Assembly (NCBI RefSeq): GCF_038070105.1
Contig: NZ_JBBPBZ010000001.1
Location: 295,680-359,679 of the forward strand
Direction: 5' to 3'
DNA: 64,000 nt
DNA from: Methylocystis sp. IM3
Lineage (GTDB): Bacteria; Pseudomonadota; Alphaproteobacteria; Rhizobiales; Beijerinckiaceae
Shown here: positions 17,413 to 57,788 of the stretch, piece by piece
How the letters are laid out: each line of letters begins with the position of its first letter
Numbering within the stretch: position 1 is the first letter of the stretch
Program-made: the position numbers and the translations under genes
Notes under the pieces: generated by a model
What the model saw: only the letters and a program-made list of their open reading frames with translations
Told to the model about the DNA's origin: nothing
Databases searched by the model: none

Positions 17413-17980
17413 TGTTAGCGCCCGCTCCATCGCGATTTCGGCGCGATGAATCACCGCTTTTCCGTGGAGATTCGACGGAGTGAAACTGGCGTCGTCGGCC
17501 AGGAACTCGCAAAGTAATTTAGTTTGCGAGGCGAGGCGCGTGGCAAGCGGATCGTTCGGAAGAAGATTCGTCAGTTCGTCTCGAAAAACGGAGACACAGC
17601 TTGGCTCCAACCCAATCACCGGTATGCCTGCTTCTATATCGTTCTCAATGGACTTCAGGGTTTTGCATAACACCTCTTTGGCCTGATCGAGAAGGCCGGA
17701 CTCGTAGAGGGGTCGACCACAACACAATCTTTCCGTCGGGATTTCCACTTCATAGCCGGCGGCTTCGAGCACACGCACCGCTGCTTGAGCGGTTTGTGGC
17801 GCGAAATAATTGCTGAGCGTGTCGGGCCACAGTAAGACGCGCCGATTTGCTCCTCTCACGGTAGGTTTACGCCTCTTAAACCAGGCCTCGAACGAAGCGG
17901 GCGCCAGCTTTGGAAGCGTGGCTTTGGCGTGAAACCGGGCAATAACATTCACAAGGCGCCTGAGAGTCGGTCCGGAGACT

Positions 17981-18859
17981 TCATGATTGATTACAGAGCC
18001 TTCTGAGCATGAGGCGAATGGAGGCGAGGTGCAAGAAAGCGAGCGCCTTTCGATTGAGATTTTCCCAATCCTTGGCCAATCGGCGGCAGCGGCCCAGCCA
18101 GGATAAAGTTCGCTCAACAACCCAACGCCTGGGCAAGATCTCGAATCCTTTGGCTCTATCAGAACGCTTGACGATTTCTGTCACAAGACCCGGCAAGGCT
18201 TTCTTCTGCGCCTCGCGAAATTGTGGACCCTGATAGCCGCCATCGGCGAACATCTTTTGAAGAAATGGAAATTTTCCAAATAACGTGCTCAAGACGAGAA
18301 TGCCGCCATCGCGGTCTTGAATGTCCGCGCTGTGAACGACGGCGTGAAGCAGCAAGCCTATCGTATCGACGAGAATATGCCGCTTTTTGCCTTTGACCTT
18401 CTTGCCCGCATCATAGCCATGCGGATCGATATAGCTCCCCCTTTTTCAGCGCTCTTCACGCTTTGGCTGTCGATGACCGCGGCAGTCGGACTGGCTTCGC
18501 GCCCTTCTGCTTCCCGACACCTGACGTAAAGCGCGTGGTGGATACGCTCCAACGTTCCGTCATATGTCCAGAGATCAAAATAGCCGTAAACTGTGCTTCT
18601 CGGTGGGAAGTCCTTCGGGATCGCGCGCCACTGACAGCCGGTTGATAGGACATACATCAGGCCATTGACCACCTCGCGTATGTTCACCGTGCGCTTGCCG
18701 CCGCCACGCCTTGCAGGCGGTATCAGAGGTCTGACAAATCGCCATTCCGCGTCCGTCAGATCGCTAGGATAGCGCAATTTGCTACGATCATAACGGCAGC
18801 GAGTTTCGTGCGTCCACATTCGGCGATCCCCAAAGAATCAGATCGCCTTTTGAATCATA
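17981..18859 (-). mobile_element. IS5-family (IS427-like) element with two-frame transposase
   Basis: About 870 bp. The transposase starts at 18819 on the minus strand (LRYPSDLTDAEWRFVRPLIP, GCQWRAIPKDFPPRSTVYGY, AVIDSQSVKSAEKGG). It continues in the -1 frame (FADGGYQGPQFREAQ, WVVERTLSWLGRCRRLAKDW) to about 17981. The switch falls near an A5G5 run at about 18427-18436, so it may be the programmed frameshift common in this IS group or a mutation. Ends are placed approximately from weak TGATT-type inverted repeats. No clear target duplication was seen. It interrupts the oxidoreductase pseudogene. Confidence 0.75.
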
Positions 18860-19349
18860 ACCGACTCATTCGACTCAACTTTTCTCCGGACGGACACTGA
18901 GGCCGGGCGCCTGCGTCGCAAAATTCAGGATTGGCGCTAGGGGTGACGCATAGGGCGCCCCAACGATGCACATAGCCAGCGAAATAAGCGGCGCGCGGGC
19001 GCCAATTCGCCTCGTAATAGTGAGAAAGGAATTCCGCCTTGTAGGTCGCCATGTCAACCTTTGCGGGACAATCTCCCTTGCAGCCTTTGCATTGCAAACA
19101 GAGATCCAGAGCTTCTTTCACATTGTTGTTGAACCAACCGCCGCCGAGCGCGCCGGCTCGGAAGAGCTCGAACAACAAATGGGCGCGCCCCCTGGTGGTA
19201 TGTCTTTCATCGCGCGTCGCGATAAAGCTCGGGCACATGGTCCGCTTGTCCGATAGGCTTCGGCAGAGTCCGACGCCAAAGCAGCGCTCGACCGCTTGTG
19301 CGATGGAGCCTGCATCCTCTGGAAAGGCGAAATGCGTCTTCAGCTCTAA

Positions 19350-20656
19350 CAGGCTGTTGAAAAACCCCTCGCACTGACGACGCTGTTGTGATTCCCTTCG
19401 CTTCAGGCAAGGGGGGCTTGGAATGCGCGGCGGGGACGAGCGGTCTGGGGCGCTATTCAGCTATGTGGACATGGAGGCGCGCGTTCCGCAAGCGCATCCC
19501 TTGCGAGTCATCCGCGACCTAGCGAACCAGGCACTCGCCGCTCTTGCCGGGGAATTTTCGGCGCTCTACGCCTCGACAGGCCGGCCCTCCATCCCGCCGG
19601 AGAAGCTGCTGCGCGCGATGCTGCTGCAAGCCTTCTACTCGATCCGCTCGGAGCGCCAGCTCATGGAGCGGCTCGATTTCGACTTATTGTTTCGCTGGTT
19701 CGTGGGGCTCGGGATCGACGATTCCGTCTGGGATCATTCGACCTTCTCCAAGAATCGCGACCGGCTGCTCGATGGCGACATCGCGGCGAAGTTTCTTGCC
19801 GCCGTGCTGGCGCAGCCGCGTGTGAAGCGGCTTTTGAGCAACGATCATTTCTCTGTCGATGGCACGCTGATCGAGGCTTGGGCGTCCATGAAGAGCTTCA
19901 CGCCGAAGAGCGCGGGCGAAGGCGAGGCGAACCAAACGGACGATCCACCTTCGGGCGACGGCGGATCGCGCAACCGCGAAGCGGATTTCCATGGCGAGAA
20001 GCGTTCGAACGACACACATGCTTCAACGAGCGATCCGGACGCACGGCTTTATCGCAAGGGCGCTGGCAAGGAGGCGAAGCTGTGTTTCATCGGTCATGCG
20101 CTGATGGAGAACCGTAACGCTCTTTTCGTCGATGCCTGCCTGACGAAAGCCGACGGCCACGCCGAACGCGTCGCTGCGCTGCATATGATCGAGCCGCGGG
20201 CCGACCGGCCGAGGCGGATCACACTCGCGGCCGACAAGGGCTACGACGCCGAGGACTTCGTCAACGAGTTGCGCTCGATGCGGGTTACGCCGCATGTGGC
20301 GCAGAATGTGAGCGGCCGGTCATCTGCGATCGATGGGCGCACGACGCGGCATGGCGGCTACGGGCTCAGCCAGCGCATCCGCAAGCAGATTGAGGAGGGC
20401 TTCGGCTGGATCAAGACAGTCGCCGGGCAGGAGAAAACCAAGTTTCGAGGCTGCGACAGGGTGGGCTTCGCTTTCACCTTCGCGGCAGCCGCCTATAATC
20501 TGGTCAGGCTACCGAAGCTGCTCGCCGCAGCGTGAGATGAGAGACCGAAGCGCGCAAAGCGCGCGCGCTTCCGAGCCCTATCAACCGCGCCCACCTCCCC
20601 CCGAAAATCCGCTCCAGAGCGGAAGGCGGCGAGTAGCCCCTTTTTTCAACAGCCTG
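19350..20656 (+). mobile_element. IS5-family insertion sequence, copy 2 (complete)
   Basis: A 1307-bp element with ends CAGGCTGTTGAAAAA. It is flanked by CTAA duplications at 19346-19349 and 20657-20660. Removing the element and one CTAA restores an uninterrupted reading of the oxidoreductase (DYQPLELKTHFAFPED), which proves the insertion point. It is the same family as the element at 9678-10982. Confidence 0.95.
19423..20535 (+). CDS. IS5-family transposase
   Basis: 370 residues, full length, with the same catalytic Asp, Asp and Glu motifs as the transposase at 9800-10909 (FSVDGTLIEA, LAADKGYD, IEEGFGWIKT). It differs from that copy at scattered positions, mostly in the linker around residues 165-185. 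It is inserted antisense to the disrupted oxidoreductase. Confidence 0.95.
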   Translation: MRGGDERSGALFSYVDMEARVPQAHPLRVIRDLANQALAALAGEFSALYASTGRPSIPPEKLLRAMLLQAFYSIRSERQLMERLDFDLLFRWFVGLGIDDSVWDHSTFSKNRDRLLDGDIAAKFLAAVLAQPRVKRLLSNDHFSVDGTLIEAWASMKSFTPKSAGEGEANQTDDPPSGDGGSRNREADFHGEKRSNDTHASTSDPDARLYRKGAGKEAKLCFIGHALMENRNALFVDACLTKADGHAERVAALHMIEPRADRPRRITLAADKGYDAEDFVNELRSMRVTPHVAQNVSGRSSAIDGRTTRHGGYGLSQRIRKQIEEGFGWIKTVAGQEKTKFRGCDRVGFAFTFAAAAYNLVRLPKLLAAA

Positions 20657-22508
20657 CTAAGGGTTGGTAATCGGGGCCCGTGCGGAGATTGTCATCGAGC
20701 GGATAAGGATCCACAACTTTGCCGGGGTTGAGTTTCCAATCAGGGTCCCAGATCGCTTTGAAGTCTCGGAACGCCTGCAAAAGGTCCGGCCCATACATTC
20801 GATCAAGGAGTTCCGCTTTTAATTGGCCGTCGCCATGCTCCCCGGACAGCGAACCGCCATAGGCCGAAACGAGATCGGCTCCGTCCTGCATGAACCGACG
20901 AAACTTCGCAACGCCCGGCTCGCTCTTCAGATCAAAGTTGAATCTCGTGTGAACGCAGCCTTGCCCGAAATGGCCGTACAGCGTGCATCGATACTGATAG
21001 CGATTGATCAGTTTTTGGAAGTCTCTCAGATAGGCTCCAAGCTTTTCAACGGAGACCGCCGTATCTTCCCAAGAAGGCCACGTATCTTCCTTCCCCGGCA
21101 GGCGGCTCGCGCCGAGGTCTGCTTCGCGAATGATCCAGATCGCTCGTTGGTCGGCGGGATCGCTGAAGGCGCGCATGTCCGCTTTGTCGCTGCCTCTCTT
21201 CAGCTCGCCCAGCGCAGCATGGGCCCGGGCTGTCGCCTCACCTTGGGTTTCTCCGCCAAACTCGGCAAGCAGCTTCAGCCTGCCCTCGGGCAGCAGCCTG
21301 CGTCCCGGAGGATCCTCGTCTTTGCGCTTGAGATTTTCGAGAACCCTGATATCGAACCCTTCGAGCGCAATTGGCCCGGTTTGCAGAATTTCGGGTGCGT
21401 GGTCTCCCGCCGTGCCCCAATCCGGGTAGCCGATGAGCAGCAACGCCCGAAAACCGGGATTTGGTAAAAGCCTTAGGGTGGCTTCGAGAGTTAAGGCGCA
21501 GGTGCCTTCCGATCCAACCAGGGCCCGAGCGACGTGGAAACCATTCTCGGGGATTTGAGGGTATTGCTGTCTGACCTACTCGGACACGGCATCTATCAGA
21601 GCCTTGAGTTTCGCGTAGATCTCGCTCTTTCGGCCGCCAGCGCGGACGATTTGGGCAAATGCATCCTGAGCCGTTTCTCCAACCCTTAGCCGTTCGCCGC
21701 CATAGGTTATGATTTCAAGCTCGCAGGTGTTATCGACGGTTTTGCCGCCCATGACCGAGTGGGCTCCGCAGCTGTTATTTCCGATCATCCCGCCCAGCGT
21801 GCAATATTCGTGGGTGGCTGGATCCGGCGCGAATGTCAGACCGTGCTGTTCGGCGGCGTTGCGGAGATCATCGAGAATAACCCCCGGCTCAACCCGCGCC
21901 GTGCGACTGTGCGGGTCAATATCAAGCACCCTGTTCATATATTTCGAAAAGTCGATGACAACGGCGACATTGCAGGCTTGGCCGGATAGGCTGGTGCCGC
22001 AGCCGCGGCCGAGGATCGGAACGTCATGTTCGTGGCATGCGTCAACAGTCGCAACCACATCATCCTTATGCCGAGGGATCACCACCCCGACCGGCACATG
22101 GCGATAAATGGAAAGGTCGTGTGTGTAGAGCGCGCGACTTGCATCGTCAAATAGCACTTCTCCTTCGACGGAAGATTGCAAGCGGTGGGCAAGCTCCCGC
22201 ACACTGCCACGGCTGATTGCGCGTGAAACGTCGGCAGCTTTCACTCTCTCCTCCTGCGACTCGTCATGGCTGAGGAATTAGCCAAATTAGTTAGGGGATG
22301 GAGACGCTCAAAGAAGCGCCGCACGGACATCCATGCAATTAACGTAACGGCGCCTTGAGTAGTGATCGTATGCCGGTTTTGAACCTTGCATGGCTTTGAC
22401 CACGCATTGTCGGTGGACCCTACCCCAAACTGGAACCGGGCTCGGGGATCGTCCGTTATCTTTTGGCAGGTCAAAGGGACGTCAATGAAAGCGGTCGCAC
22501 GGACGCTC

Positions 22509-24623
22509 TCATGATATAGGGTCAAAGGACTCGCCCAGAGCCGCCCAACCCGCATCTGGGGCAAACCGAGAGCCGTGCTTTTGCGATAATCCTTGCAAAG
22601 CGGTGACAACGGCCTCTGCACCGCGTGTTTTGGCATAGTGCAAAGGCCCGCCTCGGAAAGGCGCAAAGCCAGTTGCAAAGATCATCGCCACGTCGATGAG
22701 ATCCTGATCAGCTACGATTCCCTTTCGAAGACACTCGACGCAAGCATTCACAAGAGGCAAAACGAGCCGGTCGGTCATGGCGTCGTCGGGCTCTGGCGCG
22801 GCGTCGCGCTTTTTCGGCTTGCCGGCCGAATATTCGTAAAGGCCCTTGCCAGATTTGAGCCCGAGCTCGCCTTTTTTTACCTTGTCGCGCAACCAGGTCG
22901 GGACCTCCGGCAAGAGATCAACGGACTCTTTCAGTCTGTCGGCGACCTCGAGACAAATATCCAGTCCGACACGGTCGGCGACCTCGGCTGGCCCCATGGG
23001 CATGCCGAAACGCAAGGCGGCTTCGTCGATGGTTTCAGGCCATACGTCTTCGTCTAACATGGTGAGCGCCTCGAGAAGGTAGGGTGTGAGCGCACGGTTG
23101 ACGAGAAAACCGGGCGCGCTCGCAACCGACGCCGGGAGGCGGTCGATGCGCCCGCAGAAAGACCGTGCTCTAGCGACCGCGTCGTCGCTCGATTGATCGT
23201 GGCGGACAAGTTCAACCAGTTCGAGGCTGGCGACCGGATTGAAGAAATGCAGACCGACCAAGCGGTCGGGCCGCTGGAGCCCTTGCCGCAGTTCCTCGAG
23301 AGGAATGCTCGACGTGTTCGTCGCTAATACCGCCTCGCGCCTCATGCGCGGCTCCATGGCCCGGAACACATCATGCTTGATGTCGAGACGCTCTGGCACG
23401 GCCTCGATGACGATATCGGCGCGCTCTACTCCAAGATTATTGAAATCAAGGATGAGACGATCAAGCGCGTGCCGTCTCTCGGCGGGGGCGTCGAGCTTGC
23501 GCGAGAAAAGGTCGCTCGCTCGCTTGGCGATCTTGGCGAGACCAGTATGATCCAGGTCGCTGATCGAAACTTCTAATCCTTTCAGCGCGCACCATGCGGC
23601 GATATCGCCCCCCATCACGCCGGCTCCGATGACGTGCACATGACGCAAATCAGAGTGGTCTGCCGCAAGCTTCTTCAGTTTCTCGTGCAAGAAAAAAACG
23701 CGGATGAGATTTTGTGCGGTATCGCCAACGAGGAGATCGGCAAATGATTCGCGCTCCTTTTGGAACAGATCCGCCGCTCCGCCGTGCCGCGCCCAGAGAT
23801 CGATGAGCGCGTAAGGCGCGGGATAGTGCTCCTGCCGCGCTTTCTCTTGAGTTTTGGCGCGCATCTTTTCAGCGGCGTATTTTCGGACTGGCGCCAATGA
23901 AAGCGCACGCGCTCTCAATCCTCCGCCCGACCGTTTGATTTTGCCGGCGACCGCCGCCCGCGCGGCCGCCAGGATGTGACGCTCCTCGGTGACGAGATCA
24001 ACGAGCCCGACCGCTTTCGCCTTGGGGGGTGAGATCGATCTGCCCGTGAGCATCATCGTCATCGCTTCCAAAGGATCGATCAACCGCGTGAGGCGCGCCG
24101 TGCCGCCAAGGCCTGGGTGAAGGCCGAGCTTGATTTCCGGAAATACGAAGGATGCTCCCCTCAGGGCCAGGCGATAGTCGCAGGCGAGCGCGAGCTCCAG
24201 TCCGCCGCCTAGGCAAAACCCATGGATCACGGCGACGGTCGGAAATGCGAGGGCGTCCAGCCTGTTGACGACAGCTGCGGCCCGATTGAGGCGGACCTTT
24301 ATTTTCTTCGCGTCTCGCATCCCACGTAAATCAGCGATGTCGGCGCCGGCGATGAAGCCGGAGCGCTTGCCAGATCGCAAGACAAGCCCCTTAGCTGGCC
24401 GGGCCTCGAGCTGGCCGAGACATTCATCGAGTTCCGACAGGACGGCCTCGGAGAGCGTGTTTACGCTCTCCCCCGCGCGGTCCAAGATCAGCCAGGCGAC
24501 GTCGTCCGCGTCTCGCTTCAACAGCCAGTTCTTGCCTTTCCAGGACGGCGCGATCCCCGGCCCCATCTCCAATTCTCGCCCTTGAAGCGCAGACCAGACC
24601 GTGCCAGCCATCGGTTTCTCCAT
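22509..24623 (-). CDS. fadJ: Fatty-acid oxidation multienzyme: enoyl-CoA hydratase / 3-hydroxyacyl-CoA dehydrogenase
   Basis: 704 residues. The N-terminal crotonase domain (about 30-215) has the oxyanion-hole segments SGFIAGADIADL and FCLGGGLELALACDYRLA. The NAD-binding domain starts near 325 with HVIGAGVMGGDIA. The hydroxyacyl-CoA dehydrogenase C-terminal repeats follow (GFLVNRALTPYLLEAL, KSGKGLYEY). It catalyses hydration and then oxidation of acyl-CoA in beta-oxidation. It starts 1 nt after the thiolase stop codon, as the last gene of the fadE-fadI-fadJ operon. Confidence 0.95.
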   Translation of the reverse strand: MEKPMAGTVWSALQGRELEMGPGIAPSWKGKNWLLKRDADDVAWLILDRAGESVNTLSEAVLSELDECLGQLEARPAKGLVLRSGKRSGFIAGADIADLRGMRDAKKIKVRLNRAAAVVNRLDALAFPTVAVIHGFCLGGGLELALACDYRLALRGASFVFPEIKLGLHPGLGGTARLTRLIDPLEAMTMMLTGRSISPPKAKAVGLVDLVTEERHILAAARAAVAGKIKRSGGGLRARALSLAPVRKYAAEKMRAKTQEKARQEHYPAPYALIDLWARHGGAADLFQKERESFADLLVGDTAQNLIRVFFLHEKLKKLAADHSDLRHVHVIGAGVMGGDIAAWCALKGLEVSISDLDHTGLAKIAKRASDLFSRKLDAPAERRHALDRLILDFNNLGVERADIVIEAVPERLDIKHDVFRAMEPRMRREAVLATNTSSIPLEELRQGLQRPDRLVGLHFFNPVASLELVELVRHDQSSDDAVARARSFCGRIDRLPASVASAPGFLVNRALTPYLLEALTMLDEDVWPETIDEAALRFGMPMGPAEVADRVGLDICLEVADRLKESVDLLPEVPTWLRDKVKKGELGLKSGKGLYEYSAGKPKKRDAAPEPDDAMTDRLVLPLVNACVECLRKGIVADQDLIDVAMIFATGFAPFRGGPLHYAKTRGAEAVVTALQGLSQKHGSRFAPDAGWAALGESFDPIS

Positions 24624-24624
24624 C

Positions 24625-25947
24625 TCAGGCTGCTTCGAGCAACATGGCTCCCCCCTGCCCGCCGCCGATGCACTCCGTCGCGAGCCCGCGCCTGAAGTTG
24701 AGGCGCTTCAGCGCTTTGGCGAGGTGCAGCGTGATGCGGTTGCCGCTGGCGCCAACAGGGTGACCGAGGCTGATGGCTCCGCCGTCGACATTGAGACGGT
24801 CGCACTCGATCCGGCCGAAGGTCGTTTGGAGGCCCAGCACGGTTTTGCAGTAGCTCTCGTCTTCCCATGCGGCGAGGCAGGCGAGGATCTGCGCCGCAAA
24901 CGCCTCATTGATCTCCCAGAGGTCGACATCTTCGCGGGCGAGACCGTTGCGTTCGAGAAGCGCAGTCGCGCAGAGCGTCGGCGCCAGTCCCATGATCGAC
25001 GGGTCGAGCGCGGACCATTCGGAATCGACGATGCGCGCCAGCGCATCGAGCTTGTGCTCCGCGACTGCCGTCTCGGAGGCAAGGATTATCCAGGAGGCGC
25101 CATCGGTAATCTGCGAGCTATTGCCAGGAGTGACCTTTCCGTACGGCTTCTCAAACGCTGGCGAAAGCCCGGCCAGCTTCTCGACCGAGGTGTCGGGACG
25201 CACGCCGTCGTCCTTCTCGTAGAGCTTCCCGTCCCTGTCCGCCATCGGGACGACCTCCCCCATGAGCAGGCCGGCCTCCTGGGCATGCGCCAAGCGCCTG
25301 TGGCTCTCGACCGCGTAGCGATCCGCGTCTTGGCGCGAGATGGCGAATAGATGCGCGAGAAGCTCAGCCGTCTGCCCCATATTCAAACCCACGATCGGAT
25401 CGGTCAGCCCTCGCTCTAGCCCAATGATGGGCTTCATAAAACGTGGCCGCAGCTCGCCGAGCCGCTTGGCCTTGTCCCAGATCGTTTTTGCCGCCGAAAA
25501 TCGACCGAACCATTCGACAGCCTCCCGCCGCAGGACCAGCGGCGAATGCGAGAGGGCTTCGGCGCCTCCAGCAAGAATGACGTCGGCGGCCCCGTCCTGG
25601 ATGTAGCGATAGGCCGTGTCGATCGATTGCATGCCAGAGCCGCAGTTGATCTGCACCGTGAACGCGACCATGTCTTCGCCGAGGCCAAGACGCAGCGCGG
25701 CGACGCGGGCCGGGTTCACTTCCTCGGCGATCACGTTAACGCACCCGAGGATGACCAAGTCGATGGCCGCTGCCACGGACGGGTGGCGCAACAGCAACGG
25801 CCGGCCGCATTGCACTGCGAGATCGACGGGCGTGAACGGCCCGGGCCGCCCGCGCGCCTTGATAAAGGGCGTGCGCGCGCCGTCGATGATATAGACCGGC
25901 CGCTTCACGCCATTTTTGCGCTGGAAGCGCTGTGCCGCCCCCGCCAT
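24625..25947 (-). CDS. fadI: Acetyl-CoA acyltransferase (thiolase)
   Basis: 440 residues with the thiolase motifs: nucleophilic Cys in INCGSGMQS (about C102), NEAFAAQ, GHPVGASGNR with the catalytic His, and CIGGGQGGA with the second Cys. It cleaves 3-ketoacyl-CoA to acetyl-CoA plus a shortened acyl-CoA and forms the trifunctional set with the next gene. The ATG at 25947 has an AAGGA ribosome site and overlaps fadE by 43 nt. A GTG at 25908 overlapping the fadE stop as GTGA would give the more usual KRPVYIIDG start, so either is possible. Confidence 0.95.
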   Translation of the reverse strand: MAGAAQRFQRKNGVKRPVYIIDGARTPFIKARGRPGPFTPVDLAVQCGRPLLLRHPSVAAAIDLVILGCVNVIAEEVNPARVAALRLGLGEDMVAFTVQINCGSGMQSIDTAYRYIQDGAADVILAGGAEALSHSPLVLRREAVEWFGRFSAAKTIWDKAKRLGELRPRFMKPIIGLERGLTDPIVGLNMGQTAELLAHLFAISRQDADRYAVESHRRLAHAQEAGLLMGEVVPMADRDGKLYEKDDGVRPDTSVEKLAGLSPAFEKPYGKVTPGNSSQITDGASWIILASETAVAEHKLDALARIVDSEWSALDPSIMGLAPTLCATALLERNGLAREDVDLWEINEAFAAQILACLAAWEDESYCKTVLGLQTTFGRIECDRLNVDGGAISLGHPVGASGNRITLHLAKALKRLNFRRGLATECIGGGQGGAMLLEAA

Positions 25948-28148
25948 TGCAGTTCGTCCTTTTCTGCGAGCAGAGCGAGCTCACGAGGATCGAAATCATC
26001 AACCGCGATCACAGAAGAAACCTCGGCGTCTGTTGCGCGTAGCCTCTCCGCCTCGCTTATGCCGATCACGCTTTGTCGCAGGCCCTCCTCAGTAGAATCG
26101 ATCTTTGCCTCGCGCAGCCGACGACGCAGCGGCGCCGTTTCGACGGTGAGGCCGAAGGCCCGCTCCAGTTGCGCGACCGCATCATTGCTACACCCCCGGA
26201 AAACATCGGCCGTGAGCCGATCGCGCGCCTCGCCTGGTTGCACCAAGATCGCCGCACAGCGCCGCGCCAGTTCGTCCGACGGTCCGATTTGTCTCCGGCC
26301 AAATGGCTGGATAATCGCCCCGGCGATTAGCGCCACGATCCTATTTGGAAAATTAGCGAGCGTTTCGGCGAAAAGCGTTTCGATCCGACGGAGTCCTGCC
26401 GCAACGCAGTAGTCGACGAGCGGCTCGTCGGATTCATTCCGACCTTCGTCTTCGAAGCGTTTGAGCACAGCCGAAAGAAAATAGAGCTCGGATAGAACAT
26501 CGCCCAACCGCGCCGATATCATTTCTCTCCGTTTGAGCTGGCCGCCGAGCGTGATCAGCGCCAAATCGGCAATCAGCGCGAAAGACGCCGCATCGCGCGA
26601 CAGTTGCTTGTAATACGCCGCCATCGGGCCTGCCTTGGGCGAGGGGCCAATACGGCCGCCACTCCAATTTCGGACAAAGGCGCGGCCGAGATTGGCGAAG
26701 AAGTGGCCGACGTGGCGCCAGAGCGCCCGATCGAATTGTTCTATCCCTTTGTCAGGGTCGGCCAGCGCGCCCATTTCCTCGAGGAGATAGGGATGGCAAC
26801 GGATTGCGCCCTGCCCGAAGATGATGAGGCAGCGGGTCAATAAGTTTGCGCCTTCGACAGTGACGGCGATGGGTGTTGTTCGATGTAAATTGCCCAAATA
26901 ATTTCGCGGTCCATCCATGACCGCTTTCCCACCATGGAGATCCATCGCCTCCTCCACCGCCTCGCGCATGCGCTCGGTGGCGTCGGACTTCATGATGGCC
27001 GATATGACGGCTGGCTTATAACCCTGATCCAAAGCGGCGCAGGTCAATCGTCGTGCCGCGTCGATGCGGTACGTCGTCGCGGCAAGATGGCCGAGGCGAT
27101 CTTGCACGCCTTCGAGGTCGCCAATGGGGATGCCGAACTGTTCGCGAATTCGCGCATAAGCGCCAGTTGAGCGCGCGCTGAAAGCGGTGGCGGCGCCCGC
27201 GAGGCTTGGTAGAGAAATTCCCCGCCCAGCGGCCAGCGCGCTCATCGTCATCTTCCAACCGGCGCCGATTTGCTCTCTTCCGCCAACGACCCAATCGAGC
27301 GGCGCGAACACGTCGCGTCCTTGGTTTGGGCCATTCTGAAACGCCTGAGACGCCGGCAGGTGGCGTCTGCCGATTTCGACGCCCGGGGCGTTGGCCGGCA
27401 CAAGCGCAACAGTGATGCCGAGGTCTTCCTCGCCGCCGATGAAGGCAAGCCCGAGCACCGTGGCTATCGGACCAAGCGTGATGTAGCGTTTGCGCCAATT
27501 AAGCCGCAGGCCGAGCGCGCGCGCGCCATTATGGTCCGCGTAGCAAACGACCCCGCTATCTGTCATGGAGGCGGCGTCCGAGCCTGCTTCCGGGCTGGTA
27601 AGGCAAAAACACGGGATTTCGCGGCCGTCCGCCAAGCGGGGAAGCCAATAGGCTTTTTGTTCGTCGGTCCCGAATTGGACCAGCAACTCTCCCGGACCGA
27701 GGGAATTGGGGACCATGACAGTGACGGCGGCGGTCACGCTACGGGTGCTGATCTTACGGATCACTTGCGAATGCGCGTAGGCTGAAAACCCCAAGCCGCC
27801 ATACTCGGTTGGGATAATCATTCCGAAGAATTTGTGCCGCTTCAGGAAGTCCCAGACGTTAGCGGGAAGATCTCGCCATTCGAACTGGATTTTCCAATCA
27901 TCGAGCATCCCGCACAGTTCCTCCACGGGCCCGAGGAGGAACGCCTGCTCAGCAGGGCCCAAGCGCGCCGGCGGCGTGTCGAGAAGCTTTTTCCAATCTG
28001 GGTCGCCGGTGAACAGCTCCGCGTCCCACCATACGTCACCCGCCTCGATCGCCTCGCGCTCGGTAGCGGACATTTGTGGCAGAGCGCCACGGGCCCATCT
28101 GTAAATGGGCTCTGAGAGTAGTTTCCGCCTGATGTGTTCTAAGCTCAA
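25905..28148 (-). CDS. fadE: Long-chain acyl-CoA dehydrogenase, FadE type
   Basis: 747 residues, in the range of the FadE branch of acyl-CoA dehydrogenases rather than the 380-residue short form. It shows FFGMIIPTEYGGLGFSAYAH, CFCLTSPEAGSDAASMTDSG (flavin/substrate loop), and GRGISLPSLAGAATAFSARS with the catalytic-domain arginine region. A FadE-type C-terminal extension follows. It introduces the trans-2 double bond in acyl-CoA, passing electrons to ETF. It is the first gene of a three-gene operon with overlapping or near-touching junctions. Confidence 0.95.
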   Translation of the reverse strand: MSLEHIRRKLLSEPIYRWARGALPQMSATEREAIEAGDVWWDAELFTGDPDWKKLLDTPPARLGPAEQAFLLGPVEELCGMLDDWKIQFEWRDLPANVWDFLKRHKFFGMIIPTEYGGLGFSAYAHSQVIRKISTRSVTAAVTVMVPNSLGPGELLVQFGTDEQKAYWLPRLADGREIPCFCLTSPEAGSDAASMTDSGVVCYADHNGARALGLRLNWRKRYITLGPIATVLGLAFIGGEEDLGITVALVPANAPGVEIGRRHLPASQAFQNGPNQGRDVFAPLDWVVGGREQIGAGWKMTMSALAAGRGISLPSLAGAATAFSARSTGAYARIREQFGIPIGDLEGVQDRLGHLAATTYRIDAARRLTCAALDQGYKPAVISAIMKSDATERMREAVEEAMDLHGGKAVMDGPRNYLGNLHRTTPIAVTVEGANLLTRCLIIFGQGAIRCHPYLLEEMGALADPDKGIEQFDRALWRHVGHFFANLGRAFVRNWSGGRIGPSPKAGPMAAYYKQLSRDAASFALIADLALITLGGQLKRREMISARLGDVLSELYFLSAVLKRFEDEGRNESDEPLVDYCVAAGLRRIETLFAETLANFPNRIVALIAGAIIQPFGRRQIGPSDELARRCAAILVQPGEARDRLTADVFRGCSNDAVAQLERAFGLTVETAPLRRRLREAKIDSTEEGLRQSVIGISEAERLRATDAEVSSVIAVDDFDPRELALLAEKDELQWRGRHSASSAKMA

Positions 28149-28856: not shown

Positions 28857-29798
28857 GTGCCGCGCGAGGAAATGGCGCACCGGAACGGGATACTTAGCGC
28901 TGCAAGTCTTATGGTCGGGGCCCCGGCGGCGGAAGACGCCGTCAGACGGGCTCAGGCGCTGCCGCGACTCGCCATCGGGCTTCATGTCGTCCTGGTGGAT
29001 GGGGTCCCGACGCTTCCGCCCCACGAAATCCCAGATCTGGTCGACGAAAGAGGCCAGCTTCGCAACGATCTCGCGAAGCTCGGCCTTGACATCGCTTTCC
29101 GGCCGAAGGTGCGATCGCAGTTGAGACAGGAGATCCGAGCGCAGTTTGAGGCCTTTACCGCGAGCGGCATGGCGCTCAGCCACGTCGATGTTCACAAGCA
29201 CTATCACCTGCATCCAGACGTAGCCGCCGACATCATTTCGATTGGGCGAGAGTTTGGCATGCGATCGCTGCGGGCGCCATCCGAACCGCGGAGCGTTCTC
29301 GAGGCAATCGACAAACAGGACATTCGTTCGTCCTGGATGCTCGCTCCCTCGGTGGCGTTTTTGAAGCGACAGGCGCGTCGGGCAGGGCTAATGACCGCTG
29401 ACGCCGTCTTCGGCTGGGCGTGGTCTGGCGCCTTGAACGAAAGGCGCATGATTGGGCTTCTCTCTCAGATCCCGAGACCGGCGTTGACCGAGATATATTG
29501 CCATCCTGCAATAAGGGATGATTTCCGAGGACACGCGCGGGGGTACGGCTATCGAATCGAACTCGACGCCCTTTTGTCGGCCAGGGTGGCGGCGGCGCTC
29601 GGAGAAAGCGGCTTTACGCTATGCACATACAACGACGTTTGCAGGCCGGACACACAGGGGCGCCATTCTGTACCTGACACGCTAACGCGGTCACGCTACT
29701 CTTTATGGCATCAAATCGAGGCCCCAGACTGGTCCGAAGTCGCCATCGCGCCAGTAGGCGGCGCCAAGGATGAGAGCAGAAGTTTTGGATGCTGCTGA
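28857..29798 (+). pseudogene. Truncated hpnK/YdjC-type carbohydrate deacetylase, old copy
   Basis: From about 28869 the product matches the protein at 62644-63534 (EMAHRNGILSAASLMVGAPA, SHVDVHKHYHLHP) over most of its length. The first 22 residues are missing, including the ITADDFG motif with the metal-binding aspartates. The sequence before the junction belongs to the small-peptide repeat. The C-terminus also diverges after about residue 255. Without the ADD motif the enzyme cannot be active in the normal way, so it is probably a decaying duplicate. Confidence 0.8.
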
Positions 29799-29848
29799 TC
29801 GAATGAGAGCGAGGCTAATCGGCGAGATCGATCCCTGGAAACATTCAT

Positions 29849-31138
29849 TCATTCACCCTCAGATTGCTCTTGCTTTTTGGTGACATTTCCTTCCTGCGCA
29901 GGGAGCGGGGAAAACTGGTAATTCGCCAATGGGACTGTCAGGCAGACGCTTTGGGCTGGCAGCACCTCCCGCCAGTCTTTAATCAGTTGCTTATAGGCCT
30001 TTCCGACGGCTCGAGGTTTGCGTTCGAGGTCATAGAGGCCAAGAGGGTTGGTGCGTCCATGGTCCTCACGCAAAGCAATGTCCCAGTCAACCTGATCTGT
30101 TAGGGAATACCATGTGAAGCCGACCACCGGCATCCCGCTATTGCGAACTCTGAGAACATTCGCCCATTCTTTGCGGAGCCAACGAACCGCCTCATCGCCT
30201 TGCGGCCCCTCCCACGTGTTTGTCTCCGTATGCATGACTGGCAGACGGTAGCGTTCATAATATTGGCGGGTGATTTCGTTATAGCCGAAGATCTCACCGG
30301 AAGATGCGGTTCTCCCGTCTGCATCGACGTTATGTTCGCTCGTCTCGTAATAGTCATTTCCCATGATGCAATGACTTTTCAGATGCTCGCTCATGAAAAA
30401 ATCATATTCCCGAGGCGTCATGCCATTGTCCATAAGGAACCGGTACATTTCCGAGTTGACGCGCCGGCCGTAATTCAGGTCTAGAGAAAGGAACCGACGC
30501 TCGTTTAAAATCTCGGCAGGCCCGATCGCTTTTGGATTATTGGCATGAAAATATTCCGAGGACTCGCTTTGGACGAAAATTGCATCTGGTCGAATGGTCA
30601 AGATCTCGTGCATCGCGAGGATATTCGCTTTGACCATGTGCTTCAGCGCGGTTACAAATCCGATATCGCTTCGCAACTGTTCGTTCCACCAGCCGTAGGC
30701 GGCCGAAAAGGTTGCGCAGACGTACATCTCATTTACCGGCGTATAAAGCTGCACCCAAGGAAATCGTTCCGCAAATGCTCTCGCATACGATGCAAAGAGT
30801 CTGGGGAAGTCAGGGTTTTGAAAATTCCCGATCCAGTCCGGTACGCCGAAATGACACAAATCGACGATAGGGACTATTCTCCGCGCCTTGATGTCGCCGA
30901 ATGCCAAATCGGTAAAATCCCAATCGAAGTGGTTCGGTCCCAGAAAGGTCTTATAGAGTGGCGGCCCATAGCGAAGGGTCCGGATCGTCAGGTCCTCTTG
31001 AACGAGAGCAAAATCCTCACGCCAGAAGTCGTAGTGTCTGCACGTCGCCATCTCATCGATACGCTTGCGGCCATTTTCGATGGTCGGGCTGCTGTTTTCT
31101 ATACCCGTGCTAAACATGAATCGCGACACTCGCCCCAC
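29849..31138 (-). CDS. GH1-like glycoside hydrolase, copy A
   Basis: 429 residues with a clan GH-A barrel pattern. The acid/base Glu is in LYTPVNEMYV (E137) and the nucleophile Glu in VMHTETNTWEG (E305), the places of the NEP and TENG motifs of family 1. The motifs are divergent, and DWDFTDLAF, CHFGVPDWIG and GFTWYSLTDQVDWD fit the family. There is no signal peptide, so it is probably cytoplasmic. It is close to copy B (61027-62322) along its full length and has stayed open while its hpnK and mgtC neighbours decayed. The substrate is unknown. Confidence 0.8.
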   Translation of the reverse strand: MGRVSRFMFSTGIENSSPTIENGRKRIDEMATCRHYDFWREDFALVQEDLTIRTLRYGPPLYKTFLGPNHFDWDFTDLAFGDIKARRIVPIVDLCHFGVPDWIGNFQNPDFPRLFASYARAFAERFPWVQLYTPVNEMYVCATFSAAYGWWNEQLRSDIGFVTALKHMVKANILAMHEILTIRPDAIFVQSESSEYFHANNPKAIGPAEILNERRFLSLDLNYGRRVNSEMYRFLMDNGMTPREYDFFMSEHLKSHCIMGNDYYETSEHNVDADGRTASSGEIFGYNEITRQYYERYRLPVMHTETNTWEGPQGDEAVRWLRKEWANVLRVRNSGMPVVGFTWYSLTDQVDWDIALREDHGRTNPLGLYDLERKPRAVGKAYKQLIKDWREVLPAQSVCLTVPLANYQFSPLPAQEGNVTKKQEQSEGE

Positions 31139-31498
31139 TCCGCGATAGGCCCTCGTACAGAATTACCTATGAAGCGCCAGCCCGATTTACAGGTGTTGGC
31201 GGAGAACTTCGCTTGTCGACGAAGGTTATTTTTTATTCTGTCTGTGCTCGTTCGGAAACGCTAAATGTGTTGCGAGGTTGCTAACAACACCCCCGTTCCC
31301 CTGGGGAGGGTCATATCTGACCCGGCGGTTTATGGGACGAGGGCTGCCGCCATGAGGAGGTAAATGCGATCCCGTACCAAGCGTCACTGCTGGATCCGGA
31401 ATCGTCTGGAGGGCGAGGGTTCCGTTGCTTTCAGAACAACAAGAGATGCCCGCGCTCCTGAGCGGCAGCGCGGGCAGTCGGCCAAGTTTCGGTGATCA
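31139..31498. other. Intergenic region, nothing recognised
   Basis: 360 bp between the GH1-like gene and the six-TM gene's stop codon. It probably contains the promoter of the GH1-like gene. No gene or clear repeat was found. Confidence 0.4.
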
Positions 31499-51428: not shown

Positions 51429-52481
51429 CTAATTCAAGGAAACATCGGCAAAATACGAACTCCTAAAAATCTCCAAAAATCGCAACGGTTCATCGCCGAG
51501 ATTCTCCACATAGTGACCCATGGCGAAGGGCACATATCCCACATCGCCAGCTCGATAATCGAAAGTCCGCGCCTTGCCGCTCGAGGCGAATACCGTCATG
51601 CGTCCGCGTCCGCCGATGTAATATTGCCATTCATCGGCGTTTGGGTGCCAATGCAGCTCACGCATCCCACCAGGGTCCAGTTCGACCAACGCCGCAGCGA
51701 TTGTGCTCGCAGCGGGAAAATTGCGAGAGTCGACGATTCGCACCTGCCCCCCAGCCGTTTTGAGGGGCGCCTGCGCCTGTAGCCGGTAGCTATACTGGAG
51801 TGGCGCTGGACCGGCAGGCGATGCGACTTTGTCCGAGGTCAGCGGCCCCGGGATTTTCCCTTGGAAAATCCACCTTGCTCGCGCGATGTCGATCGGGATA
51901 TTGGCGAAAGCGTTTTCGGGAACCCCGAAGTTCTTCGCCAGCACCCCGCGCGGCGTATGCGCAAACCAATCGGAGATCAAGAAGGTTTCATTTTCCGAGA
52001 AGTTGCCGTCGTCGAAGGCCAAGAGAAACTCGCAGCCTTCTGCGAGGCCCTGGATCGAGTGGGGTATGCCCGGAGGAAAATTCCACAGATCGCCAACGTT
52101 TACGTCATCCACAAAATTGCGGCCTTGTGGATCGACGGCCGTTATCCTCGCGCTGCCGGCCAGCATAAAGCCCCACTCGGCCTGCTTGTGCCAATGCAAT
52201 TCACGGATACCGGCGGGGTTCAAAGCCATGTTTACGCCAGCGATTGTTGTCGCGATCGGCAACTCGCGTTCCGTAATCTCACGCGCCCACCCCCCTTTGG
52301 TCACTCGGTTGTGAGCCGCGGAAAAAGAGAACTTCAGATTAGGAACAGTTCCCGCGTCAGTTGAGGGCGACCTTAGAAGGTCTGGATTTTGAGCCTCCAG
52401 CGCGTCATTGCGTGGCCCCATTATAGCGACGCTTTGAAGTGGATCATCGCGAAGTTCTCGTTTCTTACGCATCGTTCTCAC
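51429..52481 (-). CDS. Oxalate decarboxylase-type bicupin
   Basis: 350 residues with two cupin domains. Domain 1 manganese ligands: [13 protein letters not shown] (H96, H98, E102) and IPHSIQ (H141). Domain 2: [12 protein letters not shown] (H277, H279, E284) and MGHYVENLG (H323). Between them lies the active-site lid SENE (162-165), whose Glu163 corresponds to the proton donor of the SENS lid of Bacillus OxdC. This points to decarboxylase rather than oxidase activity on oxalate, giving formate and CO2. There is no signal peptide. It lies between IS66 debris and the disrupted oxidoreductase. Confidence 0.85.
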
Positions 52482-53283
52482 TTTCTATCTCCGGCGCGCT
52501 TCGCCGGCATCCGGATTTTCGGGACGCAGAGCGATTAAAGGCCAAGGGCGAGCGCCTCTGCGAAATGTAAGGAGACTCGGCCCGTATGCTGCGCAATCTG
52601 ATGATGGCATGAAAAGCCACTCGCGATCACGAGCGTGTCGGAATCGGCTTCTCGAACCGCCGGAAAAAGCGCTCTTTCGCCGATCTTCTCTGACAGCTCC
52701 GGATGCTGAAGGCCAAACGAGCCTGCCATGCCGCAGCAGCCTGTTTCGAGCGTCTCGCTCTTCAAGCCGGCGCGCTGTAGGATATCGGCCTCGGAAGCCC
52801 CCTTTCAGCACCGCTTTCTGGTGGCAATGGACGTGGATGATCGCCTTCCCGTGGAGGCTTGGAGGGGTATAATTCGGCTCGTCGCCGAGGAACTCGCAAA
52901 GCAGTTTCGTTTGCGAAGCAAGCCGCTTGGCGTAGGCGTCGTCAGGGAAGAGGTTCGTGAGTTCATCTCGGAACACCGAGACGCAACTTGGCTCTAAGCC
53001 TACTACGGGTGTGCCCGCGTCCATATGCTCCTCGAGCGAATGCATAATTTTCTGCAGCCCTCTTTTCGCCTCGTCAAGAAAACCGAACTCGTAGAGGGGC
53101 CGCCCGCAGCATAACCGTTCGTTTGGGATTTTGACCTCGTAGCCAGCGGCTTCGAGTACCCGCACGGCCGCTTGTGCAACCTCCGGCCTGAAGTAATTGC
53201 TGAAGGTGTCAGGCCATAATAGCACGGGGATCCCTACCCGCGCGGGGCGTCGGCGTTTGTTGAACCAATCGACGAAAGGGCTA

Positions 53284-54406
53284 GTACCCACTATCGCTGA
53301 TTGATGAGTCATGATTCAAGGCTGCATGAGCAGCCAGTTGAAAGCGACGCCAATTGAATTGACAGATGAAGAGCGGATCGAGCTCGAGGGCTTGGCGCGC
53401 TCGACCAGAACGGAGCATCGCACGCGTCTGAAGGCGAAAATCGTGCTCATGGCGGCCGAGGGCGCCGCTACCCGGGCGATTGGCCGCGCGCTCGGATGCA
53501 CCACCGGCACGGCGTCGAAATGGCGCGTGCGCTACGCCGAGGATCGGCTTGCCGGTTTTTCGGAAGTCGGCGAGCGCGGCGCGGCGCCTAAATACGACGA
53601 GGAGACCGACCGGCGCATCCTGGCCTTGCTCAATCGCAAACCCCCGGAAGGCTACGCCAACTGGACGGGACCGCTCGTCGCCAAAGCGCTTGGCGACGTC
53701 AATGTCCAATATGTCTGGCGCTTCCTGCGCACGCACAAGATCGACCTGTCGGGCCGCAAGTCCTGGTGCGTCAGCAACGACCCTGAGTTCGCGGCCAAGG
53801 CCGCTGAGATAGTCGGGCTCTACATGGCGCCGCCCGAGAACGCCATCGTGCTCGCAGTGGACGAAAAACCGTCGATCCAGGCACTGGAACGCTCGCAGGG
53901 TTATTTGAAGCTGCCGAACGGACGCGCCCTGATCGGTCAATCGCACGATTACAAAAGGCACGGAACGACAACACTTTTCGCAGCGCTCGATCTCGAGAGC
54001 GGCAAGGTCGTCGGCAAACATTACAAGCGCCGCCGTCGCGTCGAGTTCCTCGACTTCATGAACAAGGTCGTCGCCGCTCATCCCGACAAGGAAATCCATG
54101 TCGTTCTGGATAATCTCGCTACCCACAAGCCCCGGCGCGACATGTGGCTCAAACGCCACAAGAACGTGCATTTCCACTTCACGCCGACGCACGCCTCTTG
54201 GCTCAATCAAGTCGAAATCTGGTTCTCGATCCTCTCGGGCAAATCGCTGAACGGAGCCTCGTTCCAAAGCGTCCCCGAACTCATCGCCCATATCGAGGCG
54301 TTCATCGAAAGCTACAATGAAACCGCAAGGCCGTTCGTCTGGACCAAAAGCGAAGTCCACCAAAAACGCCTCAAACCTTGTTTCGCGGAACAGTGATTCT
54401 GGGTAC
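53284..54406 (+). mobile_element. IS630-family insertion sequence (complete)
   Basis: 1123 bp with ends GTACCCACTATCGCTG and (right, complement) GTACCCAGAATCACTG, flanked by TA at 53282-53283 and 54407-54408. Excision restores the host frame as LPKITSSPFVDWFNKR, which fixes the boundaries. Confidence 0.9.
53311..54396 (+). CDS. IS630-family transposase
   Basis: 361 residues. The N-terminal HTH domains include AAEGAATRAIGRALGCTTGT. The DDE domain shows IVLAVDEKPSIQALERSQGY, VVLDNLATHKP and FHFTPTHASWLNQVEIWFSI with the catalytic Asp, Asp and Glu. It looks intact and potentially active. It is inserted antisense to the disrupted oxidoreductase. Confidence 0.95.
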   Translation: MIQGCMSSQLKATPIELTDEERIELEGLARSTRTEHRTRLKAKIVLMAAEGAATRAIGRALGCTTGTASKWRVRYAEDRLAGFSEVGERGAAPKYDEETDRRILALLNRKPPEGYANWTGPLVAKALGDVNVQYVWRFLRTHKIDLSGRKSWCVSNDPEFAAKAAEIVGLYMAPPENAIVLAVDEKPSIQALERSQGYLKLPNGRALIGQSHDYKRHGTTTLFAALDLESGKVVGKHYKRRRRVEFLDFMNKVVAAHPDKEIHVVLDNLATHKPRRDMWLKRHKNVHFHFTPTHASWLNQVEIWFSILSGKSLNGASFQSVPELIAHIEAFIESYNETARPFVWTKSEVHQKRLKPCFAEQ

Positions 54407-56137
54407 TAGACGTTATTTTCGGGAGCGCCACTCCGTATTGGAATCCGGCGATCATATTGGCGACCTGTCTAAGCCCGGTGGTCTGCGTTGCGACATTGAA
54501 AACTGGAGCGAGGCGGGACGCATACGGGGCCCAGCGGTGCACATAGCCTGCGGCGTAGGCCGAACGCGGGCGCTGACAATGCTCATAATAATGCGACAGA
54601 AATTCAGCCTTGTAAGTCGCCATGTCCACCTTTACAGGGCAGTCTCCCTTACAGCCTTTGCATTGGGGGCAGAGATCCAGAGCGTCCTTCACAGCTTTAT
54701 TACGCCAACCATCGCCGAGGCTGTCGCCTCGAAAGAGCTCGAACAACAAATGCGCGCGCCCACGGGTAGTGTGGCGTTCATCCCGGGTCGCAGCGAAACT
54801 CGGGCACATCGTCCGCTTGTCTGAAAGGCTCCGGCAAAGGCCAACGCCAAAACAACGCTCGGCCGCTTGCGCGATTGATCCGCCGTCTTCCGGAAATTGA
54901 AAATGCGTCTGCGGCCTCCACGGCCTGTAATCCGGTCCGGTGCGCAAATTGTCGTCAAGCGGATAAGGGTCGACGATTTTTCCCGGATTAGGTTTCCAGT
55001 CGGGGTCCCAGATTGCCTTGAACTCCCTGAAGGCGCTCAGCAGCGCGGGGCCGTACATCCGCCCGAGTAGTTCCGCCTTTGCTTGCCCGTCGCCATGCTC
55101 CCCCGGTAGCGAGCCCCCGTATTCGGCCACAAGATCGGCTCCTGCTTCCAAAAAGCGCCGGAATTTCCTGACGCCTGGCTCGCTCTTCAGATCGAAATCG
55201 AAGCGTGTGTGCAGGCAGCCTTGGCCAAAGTGGCCGAACATGGTGCAATTGTATTGGTAGCGGCTGATGAGTTTCTGGAAATCCCTGAGATAGTCGCCGA
55301 GCCTCTCGACGGAGACCGCGGTGTCTTCCCATGAGGGCCAGCTATCCTCCCTCCCTGGAACCCGACTGGCGCCGACCCCCGCTTCGCGGATCGACCAAAT
55401 GGCCTTCTGATCGGCCGGCTCGCCAATCACGCGCATTTCTGTTTCGCCGACTTTACCTTTAAGGGCCTTCAACGCGGCATCGGCTCGCCCAGTGGCCTCC
55501 GCCTGGCTTTCCCCACCGAATTCGGCGAGCAGCCAAAGCCGGCCCTCGGGCAGCTGCTTACGCCCCGCTGGCTCTTCACCCTTGCGCTGCATGTTTTCGA
55601 GAACATGTACATCGAACCCTTCCAGCGCGATTGGCTTCTGCTGAACTATTGCAGGCGCGTGATCGCCAGCTGTACCCCAATCGCCGTAGCCCATGAGCAG
55701 TAACGCCCTATACGGGGGGCTGGGCGTGAGGTTCAAGGTCGCTTCAAGCGTCAGGGCGCATGTCCCCTCGGAGCCGACCAAGGCTCGCGCAACATGGAAG
55801 TCATTCTCCGGAAGGAGCTGGTCCAGATTGTAGCCGGACACTCGTCGCGGGATGCGCGGGTATTCCTGCCTGACGTGGTCGCCAGAACGATCGATCAGCG
55901 ATTTGAGTTTGGCGTAAAGATCGCCTTTACGACCACCTGCCCCGATGATGCGCTGAAGCTCATCCCGCGGCGTCCTACCGACCGTCATGCGTTCGCCGTC
56001 ATAGGTCAAGATTTCAAGCTCGCAGGTGTTATCGACTGTTTTTCCGCCCATGACGGAATGAGCCCCGCAACTGTTGTTGCCGATCATTCCACCGAGGGTG
56101 CAATATTTGAGCTGCTGCCGGTTTCGTGGACACCGAG

Positions 56138-57001
56138 TTAAGTTACCCCCACCTTCTTCTCGAACTCAACCGGGCTAATGTAGCCGATCGTCGAATGCCT
56201 GCGGACGGGGTTGTAGAACCGTTCGACGTAATCGAAGACATCTGCCCGGGCGTCGTTACGCGTGCGGTAGACTTTTTTGCCGATCCGCTCGGTTTTCAGC
56301 GAGGAGAAGAAGCTCTCCATCGCGGCGTTGTCCCAGACATTGCCGGACCGGCTCATCGAGCAAACGACGCCATTGTCGGCCATCAGGCGCTGGAATTGCT
56401 CGCTCGTATATTGGCTGCCCCTGTCAGAGTGATGCAGCAAGGCGTCAGGCTTGCCGCGGCGCCAGATCGCCATCATCAACGCGTCGGTGACGAGCTGCGC
56501 GGTCATCTCGGCCTTCATCGACCAGCCGACGACCCTCCGGGAGAAGAGGTCGATGACGGCGGCGACATACAGCCAGCCCTCCGCTGTCCAGATATAGGTG
56601 AAGTCCGCGATCCATTTCCGGTTCGGCGCTTCCGCCGCGAATTGCCGGTCAAGGACATTCGGCGCAACGACCATTGATCTCTGCCCCTCGTCCTTCGGAA
56701 GGCCGCGGCGACGTGGCCGCGCCCTTAAAGCGTTCGCCCGCATCAGCCGCTCGATTTTGTGGAGGCCGCAGGAAACACCCTCCGCGAGGACGTCCCGCCA
56801 GACGCGGCGGGCGCCATAGGTTCGGGCGCTGCCCACGAAGCTCACGCGGATTTTCCTTGTCAGCTCCTCGTCGGCGATCGACCGGGGGCTCGGCCCGCGA
56901 CGCAGCCAGGCGTGAAAGCCCGATCGGGAGACGTCCAGCGCTTCGCAGAGCCACGCCACCGGCCAGACATTCCGGTGCTTCGCGACGAAGGCGAATCTCA
57001 T
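56138..57001 (-). CDS. IS3-family transposase orfB (DDE integrase domain)
   Basis: 287 residues with an HTH_21-like start (FAFVAKHRNVWPVAWLCEAL) and the integrase core: WIADFTYIWTAEGWLYVAAV (Asp), LLHHSDRGSQYTS (Asp) and GNVWDNAAMESFFSSLKTER (Glu). Its ATG overlaps the orfA stop by 4 nt. In vivo it is probably made mainly as the OrfAB fusion through the frameshift site in orfA. Confidence 0.95.
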   Translation of the reverse strand: MRFAFVAKHRNVWPVAWLCEALDVSRSGFHAWLRRGPSPRSIADEELTRKIRVSFVGSARTYGARRVWRDVLAEGVSCGLHKIERLMRANALRARPRRRGLPKDEGQRSMVVAPNVLDRQFAAEAPNRKWIADFTYIWTAEGWLYVAAVIDLFSRRVVGWSMKAEMTAQLVTDALMMAIWRRGKPDALLHHSDRGSQYTSEQFQRLMADNGVVCSMSRSGNVWDNAAMESFFSSLKTERIGKKVYRTRNDARADVFDYVERFYNPVRRHSTIGYISPVEFEKKVGVT

Positions 57002-57294
57002 TTCGCTTCCCTCGCAAAGAAGGCTGCGGCCTTTTTTAGGATGTCGCGCTCCGCCCGCAGTTTGGCGACTTCACGGCGCAGTCGCTCGAGTTCCTGTTGC
57101 TCCGGCTTCTGCTGGCCGTGGCCGGGGAAGGCCTGCGCGGGATCCACCGTCAATTCCCGAATCCAGCGCCGCAACACGTTCTCGTGCACGTCCAGATCGC
57201 GGCAGGCCTGCGCGACCGTGACGCCGCGCTCCTTCACTAACCGAACCGCCTCGACCTTAAACTCTCGACTGAATATCCGTCTCGCCATAACCAA
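56998..57294 (-). CDS. IS3-family transposase orfA
   Basis: 98 residues with a helix-turn-helix (FKVEAVRLVKERGVTVAQAC) and a C-terminal leucine-zipper region (QELERLRREVAKLRAERDIL). Near its end the codons CTA AAA AAG (minus strand, 57031-57037) form a canonical A AAA AAG slippery heptamer in the right phase. The -1 frame is open through to orfB, so an OrfAB fusion by programmed frameshifting is expected. Confidence 0.9.
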   Translation of the reverse strand: MVMARRIFSREFKVEAVRLVKERGVTVAQACRDLDVHENVLRRWIRELTVDPAQAFPGHGQQKPEQQELERLRREVAKLRAERDILKKAAAFFAREAK

Positions 57295-57788
57295 CCTCCG
57301 GCCTCATGAAACACCGTTTCTCGGTGTCCACGAAACCGGCAGCAGCTCAATTCGTGGGTCGCTGGATCTGGGGCGAAGGTTAGCCCATGCTTCTCGGCCG
57401 CGCCGCGCAGCTGGTCGAAAACGACGCCAGGTTGAACTCGCGCCATGCGGTGATCCGGATCAATTAGAAGGACAGTATTCATATATTTGGAGAGATCGAT
57501 CACTACCGCGACATTGCACGTTTGGCCGGACAGACTAGTCCCACAGCCGCGACCGAAAATGGGAGTCCCACGCTGCCGGCATTCGGCAACCGCTGCAATC
57601 ACATCGTCTTTATGGCGGGGGATCACCACTCCGAGCGGGACATGGCGGTAAATGGAGAGGTCATGCGCGTAGAGCGCGCAGCTCCCCTTATCGAACAGGA
57701 CCTCCCCTTCCAGGCGGGCGCTTAAGACATGAGCCACGTCCCGCACGCTGTCTTGGCTGATCGACTGCGACACATCGGCAGCTCTCAT

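Follow-up and report, generated by a model that had tools for sequence, protein, structure and literature searches.

We report two diverged paralogous genes for an FAD/Fe-S dehydrogenase on a plasmid of the methanotroph Methylocystis sp. IM3, both of them pseudogenes and both interrupted by insertion sequences. The best reading, to which we assign a probability of about 0.78, is that active insertion sequences recently degraded plasmid genes that had become dispensable, and that the two genes are what remains of a single accessory function.

The window (the whole 64,000-nucleotide stretch analyzed here) forms the right end of contig C1, covering positions 295680 to 359679 of its 359,679 bp; the assembly totals 4.9 Mb in six contigs. 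A RepC match at C1:65311-65883 (216.7 bits) marks C1 as a repABC replicon, and RepC is also present on each of contigs C3 to C6. No overlap exists between the first 12 kb of C1 and its final 12 kb, which lie in the window.

Both copies survive in pieces

We placed both copies with tblastn, using as the query a homologue (P0001) with an open frame of 960 residues that carries all four domains in question: FAD_binding_4, FAD-oxidase_C, Fer4 dicluster, and CCG. P0001 is one of the intact homologues found elsewhere and is 77 to 81% identical to the window copies. Both copies map as minus-strand pieces, with the four Pfam domains following in that order on separate pieces, and neither retains an open frame for the whole protein (Table 1).

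Copy 1 runs leftwards from position 22244, with P0001 residues 1 to 541 at 22244-20661, residues 545 to 671 at 19340-18960, residues 672 to 691 at 18958-18899, and a last piece (residues about 692 to 862) that ends at 17446; tblastn found no trace of residues 863 to 960 within the window. Its codons specify the same residue as P0001 at 684 of 845 comparable positions (81%). In copy 2, all 960 residues are represented: residues 1 to 146 at 57788-57351, 146 to 713 at 56108-54405, 712 to 873 at 53285-52800, and, after a frame change, 872 to 960 at 52804-52538, with an identical residue in 722 of 960 codons.

Table 1. Features of the window, with coordinates counted from its first nucleotide
Feature	Coordinates	Strand	Evidence
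Copy 1, FAD/Fe-S dehydrogenase pseudogene	17446..22244	-	tblastn with P0001; Pfam FAD_binding_4, FAD-oxidase_C, Fer4_8, CCG on separate pieces
In-frame TAG in copy 1	21576..21578	-	
39-bp (13-residue) deletion in copy 1	21548..21549	-	13-residue gap versus P0001
IS5-family element in copy 1, 1307 bp	19350..20656	+	target duplication CTAA at 19346-19349 and 20657-20660
Frameshift at G run, copy 1	18958..18960	-	frame change between residues 671 and 672
IS5-family element (model IS5_3, IS427-type) in copy 1, 934 bp	17964..18897	-	target duplication TGA
IS701 element at 3' end of copy 1, left end missing	16014..17418	+	NCBIfam IS701, 405.9 bits
IS110-family transposase gene beside missing IS701 left end	14708..15985	-	NCBIfam IS110, 223.4 bits
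fadE-fadI-fadJ-like genes, apparently intact, directly upstream of copy 1	22509..28148	-	NCBIfam, nearly whole profiles
ydjC-like, GH1-like, unnamed ORF, mgtC fragment	28868..32603		inverted paralogue of 59864-63469, self-blastn 76-82%
Bicupin oxalate decarboxylase-family gene, apparently intact, directly downstream of copy 2	51429..52481	-	TIGR03404, 531.7 bits (cut-off, 254.2)
Copy 2, FAD/Fe-S dehydrogenase pseudogene	52538..57788	-	tblastn with P0001; Pfam domains on separate pieces
Frameshift at G run, copy 2	52800..52804	-	
IS630 element in copy 2, 1117 bp	53287..54403	+	target duplication TA
IS3 element in copy 2, 1242 bp	56108..57349	-	target duplication ATT
Partner segment of inverted diverged duplication	59864..63469		self-blastn; Pfam MgtC, GH1, YdjC

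The two copies were damaged by separate events

No lesion is common to copy 1 and copy 2. All four of the elements that lie inside the copies retain both ends and are flanked by target duplications within the gene, and the elements in this region match the transposase models IS5_4, IS5_3, IS3, IS630, IS701, and IS110. A first-pass annotation of this DNA had recognized the two paralogous dehydrogenases as genes destroyed by five insertion sequences in separate events at differing sites. Our mapping agrees that both are pseudogenes and that the events were separate, and it reproduces the reported target duplications (CTAA, ATT, and TA) while adding the TGA of the IS427-type element, which had been missed. 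The stop codon, the 39-bp deletion, the insertions, and the frameshifts of that annotation were likewise all located, although each of the two frameshifts alters the length of a G run by a single base and may be a read error.

As to the fifth element, IS701, the evidence stops short of the original claim: the element borders the lost 3' end of copy 1 and may have caused that loss. It is 86 to 87% identical to plasmid copies of Methylocystis rosea (M. rosea) and MJC1 and keeps its right end, but its left inverted repeat is absent, though both relatives carry it about 50 bp further out. The 27 bp between IS701 and copy 1 (17419-17445) matched, by eye, neither the expected gene nor the ends of IS701.

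One-base changes at G runs are a frequent read error. Part of the damage could thus in principle be an artefact of sequencing or assembly, as the two frameshifts would suggest, but we regard this as very improbable: the four elements with both ends have flanking target duplications, with the gene resuming on either side, and no homopolymer error can account for the stop codon, the 39-bp deletion, or the missing 3' end.

Two of the elements have second copies on the same contig, each with its own flanking duplication. The IS5 element of copy 1 recurs with 100% identity at C1:38927-40233 (flanked by CTAG), and the IS3 element of copy 2 recurs with 99.84% identity at C1:67628-68868 (flanked by GAT), which is evidence of recent element movement. 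Searches of this genome, each scoring 40 of 104 to 124 candidates, turned up no near-identical second copy of the IS427-type, IS630, or IS701 element; the IS630 element is matched at 99% in G021, a congeneric genome. The transposase of the IS427-type element, a label that comes from the first-pass annotation (the matching model is IS5_3), is split over two overlapping frames. Elsewhere in the window, another IS5-family element (9675-10986) shares 85% identity with its counterpart in copy 1, and an integrase N-terminal domain (Phage_int_SAM_4) at 12007-12723 possibly belongs to a broken integrase.

Long divergence under purifying selection preceded a probably recent loss

Copy 1 and copy 2 agree in residue at 622 of 845 comparable codons (74% amino acid identity) and share 70 to 76% nucleotide identity by self-blastn. 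Differences between them fall mostly in third codon positions (463, versus 155 first and 121 second, over the 845 codons), with a dN of 0.175 and a dS of 2.39 (NG86; dS is saturated, and the stretch of residues 692 to 862 gave none). Among residues invariant in a 16-sequence alignment, copy 1 keeps 221 of the 227 that can be read and copy 2 keeps 243 of 246; the changes number six in copy 1 and three in copy 2, two of these to proline. In a tree of 96 rows (residues about 246 to 541), whose bootstrap was still unsettled, copy 1 and P0001 form a pair (99/91) that copy 2 joins in turn (100/100).

The two copies thus diverged under purifying selection: the dN/dS values, the invariant residues, and the tree together indicate that they parted long before the damage and that both were kept functional. 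Because the copies diverged under selection and nearly all family-invariant residues are still in place, the loss is probably recent. With dS saturated or, for residues 692 to 862, unavailable, its timing rests on the retained residues and on the identity of the elements.

An accessory gene without a close third copy

The suggestion that a third copy might exist elsewhere was not borne out, in that a search of the whole genome found no close paralogue, the best other matches being GlcD-like proteins at 25 to 30% identity. FAD_binding_4 has eight matches in the genome: three are pieces of the two copies, and of the five others, three are closest to GlcD and below the cut-off, one is MurB, and one lies beside a GlcD gene.

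Within a genus sample of 39 genomes (30 of good quality), a match of the full type at E ≤ 1e-60 exists in the present genome only; full-length matches at this threshold are absent from all 38 congeners, including G062, which belongs to the same species. Seven of these congeners match only within residues 548 to 957, at 37 to 40% identity, through proteins of 464 to 550 residues. Given the lack of such matches in congeners, the dehydrogenase is an accessory gene. We also searched 11 congeners, including G062, with the window DNA (27 of roughly 95 to 132 candidates scored per genome): the strong matches were to the GH1-like gene, a C92-type gene at 58.3 to 59.1 kb, short pieces, and elements, with the dehydrogenase not among them. 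The comparison of related strains at both loci that the first-pass annotation had proposed thus found no strain with the same loci among the 38 congeners (full length, E ≤ 1e-60), and the lesions therefore cannot be dated or ordered.

In a sample of 397 genomes of the family, 126 (the present genome included) match at E ≤ 1e-120. The 127 listed rows from the other 125 genomes have no internal stop, and all except those of G104, G163, and G165 are nearly full length; ten are at 49 to 51% identity, and the rest are at 36 to 41%. As a control for gene integrity, this comparison is weak because the homologues are distant, two candidates were scored per genome, and the 1e-120 limit disfavors broken genes.

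Probable function of the enzyme

From its domains and from knowledge of the family, we infer that the intact enzyme was a respiratory 2-hydroxyacid dehydrogenase, which probably moved electrons from a D-2-hydroxyacid to FAD and through Fe-S clusters to a respiratory acceptor. Solved structures offer nine sequences of 464 to 658 residues, each aligned over the flavin part only. The label D-2-hydroxyacid dehydrogenase given in the first-pass annotation holds insofar as a substrate of this class is likely, but D-2-hydroxyglutarate as that substrate is doubtful. Two observations lead to this doubt: P0001 scores 493 bits against its best NCBIfam match, the YdiJ model NF049975, whose equivalog cut-off is 1350 (306 and 90 bits for pieces of copy 2), and the closest tree rows with neighbors on record have a thiamine-pyrophosphate enzyme rather than DUF1338 beside them. 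YdiJ of Escherichia coli and Pantoea ananatis resembles P0001 in that a single chain carries both the FAD and the Fe-S part; P0001 nevertheless lies far under the YdiJ cut-off, and both window copies are broken. According to PMC9504171, D-2-hydroxyglutarate was the sole substrate, of those assayed there, on which YdiJ showed activity, and the E. coli enzyme had none on D-lactate.

At least two groups can be distinguished among the gene neighborhoods in other genomes. Within 1.5 kb of the dehydrogenase in 80 named loci, we count a thiamine-pyrophosphate enzyme at least 26 times, an enolase-superfamily gene at least 17 times, and DUF1338 at least 8 times; these are lower bounds (L061 has both markers yet falls outside them), and 4 of the 26 thiamine-enzyme matches are weak (27 to 28%) and on the other strand. 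Nearly all DUF1338-linked dehydrogenases fall in a clade separate from the window copies (21 rows, 100/99): it holds 9 of the 10 such rows, L125 being placed elsewhere, and we saw no DUF1338 gene beside the window copies. According to PMC7286885, a DUF1338-family member of Pseudomonas putida makes D-2-hydroxyglutarate. Homologues on Paraburkholderia/Burkholderia plasmids (NC_018696 and CP000617), at 48 to 49% identity, are plasmid-borne like the window copies and belong to the 21-row clade; the dehydrogenase adjoins a DUF1338 gene in one record, and the neighbor in the same place is annotated "conserved hypothetical" in the other.

The other group consists of thiamine-enzyme-linked FAD/(Fe-S) dehydrogenases, often with an enolase-superfamily gene, as in Rhizobium sp. 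Q54 (LR606152), L052, L056, and L094. The tree rows with known neighbors that are nearest to the window copies are L052 and L056, followed by L094 and L100, and a thiamine enzyme adjoins each; 10 of the 12 sister rows are without known neighbors. By analogy, the hydroxyacid would be oxidized to an oxoacid and then decarboxylated by the thiamine enzyme, with D-lactate as one candidate substrate. No thiamine enzyme is annotated among the window ORFs scanned, and the nearest in the genome is on contig C2 (44% identity). In L094, a Solirubrobacteraceae MAG, an oxalate decarboxylase-family gene lies 713 bp downstream of the dehydrogenase (62% over 280 residues), as it does in copy 2, which may hint at a shared pathway; such a gene was matched in 2 of the 80 named loci (L094 and L114), in one of them within 1.5 kb. 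For the fad genes, the same loci yielded one weak match to fadJ, with none at 1e-15, and none to fadI or fadE.

Decay in the surrounding region

An inverted, diverged duplication links two further segments of the window (Table 1). The mgtC partner near 32.5 kb keeps only bases 4 to 151 of 681, beside a transposase remnant, and decay is thus not confined to the dehydrogenase. It is also uneven, in that the fad and oxalate decarboxylase-family genes look intact.

Several other observations concern this region. The fadE-fadI-fadJ-like cluster has short, weak matches only in the 11 congeners searched (27 of roughly 95 to 132 candidates scored per genome). A repeat of ~510 bp pairs 28333-28842 with 47585-47833 plus 48605-48860, the latter split by about 770 bp; the intervening DNA, at 47.8 to 48.6 kb, gives a weak DDE_3 transposase signal of 21.3 bits, which is under the cut-off. 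A ComA-like phosphosulfolactate synthase, an MmgE/PrpD-family gene, and a PHA synthase are adjacent at 42145-46403, and an AI-2E transporter piece of 157 aa (36665-37138), with a fuller one at 40594-41808, is perhaps a decayed duplicate.

Tolerated, selected, or targeted loss

Four of 10 hand-counted elements and remnants in the window interrupt the dehydrogenase copies, whose share of the element-free DNA is 10.4% (about 5.45 kb of 52.5 kb; P = 0.0145, or P = 0.0019 when the bordering IS701 is included as a fifth insertion), in a post hoc test with hand-drawn coordinates. Because we settled on this test only once the pattern was known, and because a dead gene can absorb additional insertions, the excess establishes neither selection nor a hot spot. 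It does weakly suggest the insertion hot spot raised in the first-pass annotation, in which the gene or its DNA would attract several unrelated element families. We find this quite unlikely: the four internal insertions belong to four element types that made different duplications (CTAA, TGA, ATT, and TA) at four different sites, and the family rows described above, a weak control (36 to 51% identity, 2 candidates per genome, 1e-120), contain no internal stop.

That annotation further proposed that loss had been tolerated or selected. Tolerance fits the neutral decay of a dispensable gene; selection is the less likely of the two. Selected loss would mean that the enzyme turned harmful, perhaps because it drained a 2-hydroxyacid or let electrons escape to oxygen, and that the copies were knocked out successively. 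Consistent with this are the breakage of both long-conserved paralogues by separate events, the overrepresentation of insertions in them, and the apparently intact flanking metabolic genes. We nonetheless judge it unlikely, as there is a single genome, neutral decay after a first hit also yields several hits per copy, and the neighboring duplicated mgtC is broken too.

Ordinary gene decay on a plasmid therefore remains the most likely account. The copies split long ago, both under purifying selection, and a plasmid fusion or an old duplication, proposed because the region also holds the diverged inverted paralogous block, may have brought them together. The function would then have become dispensable, after which small lesions and insertions of four element types built up separately in each copy, such that neither would now yield a whole protein.

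Implications

The neighborhoods in other genomes make D-2-hydroxyglutarate dehydrogenase an unsafe default label, and this family should not be named so by default. Were the enzyme harmful in a methanotroph background, the loss of the same activity twice on one plasmid would represent convergent, selected transposon knock-out, though this is improbable. More broadly, the case shows a plasmid metabolic gene family in the course of being lost, each copy dying separately after a long functional history.
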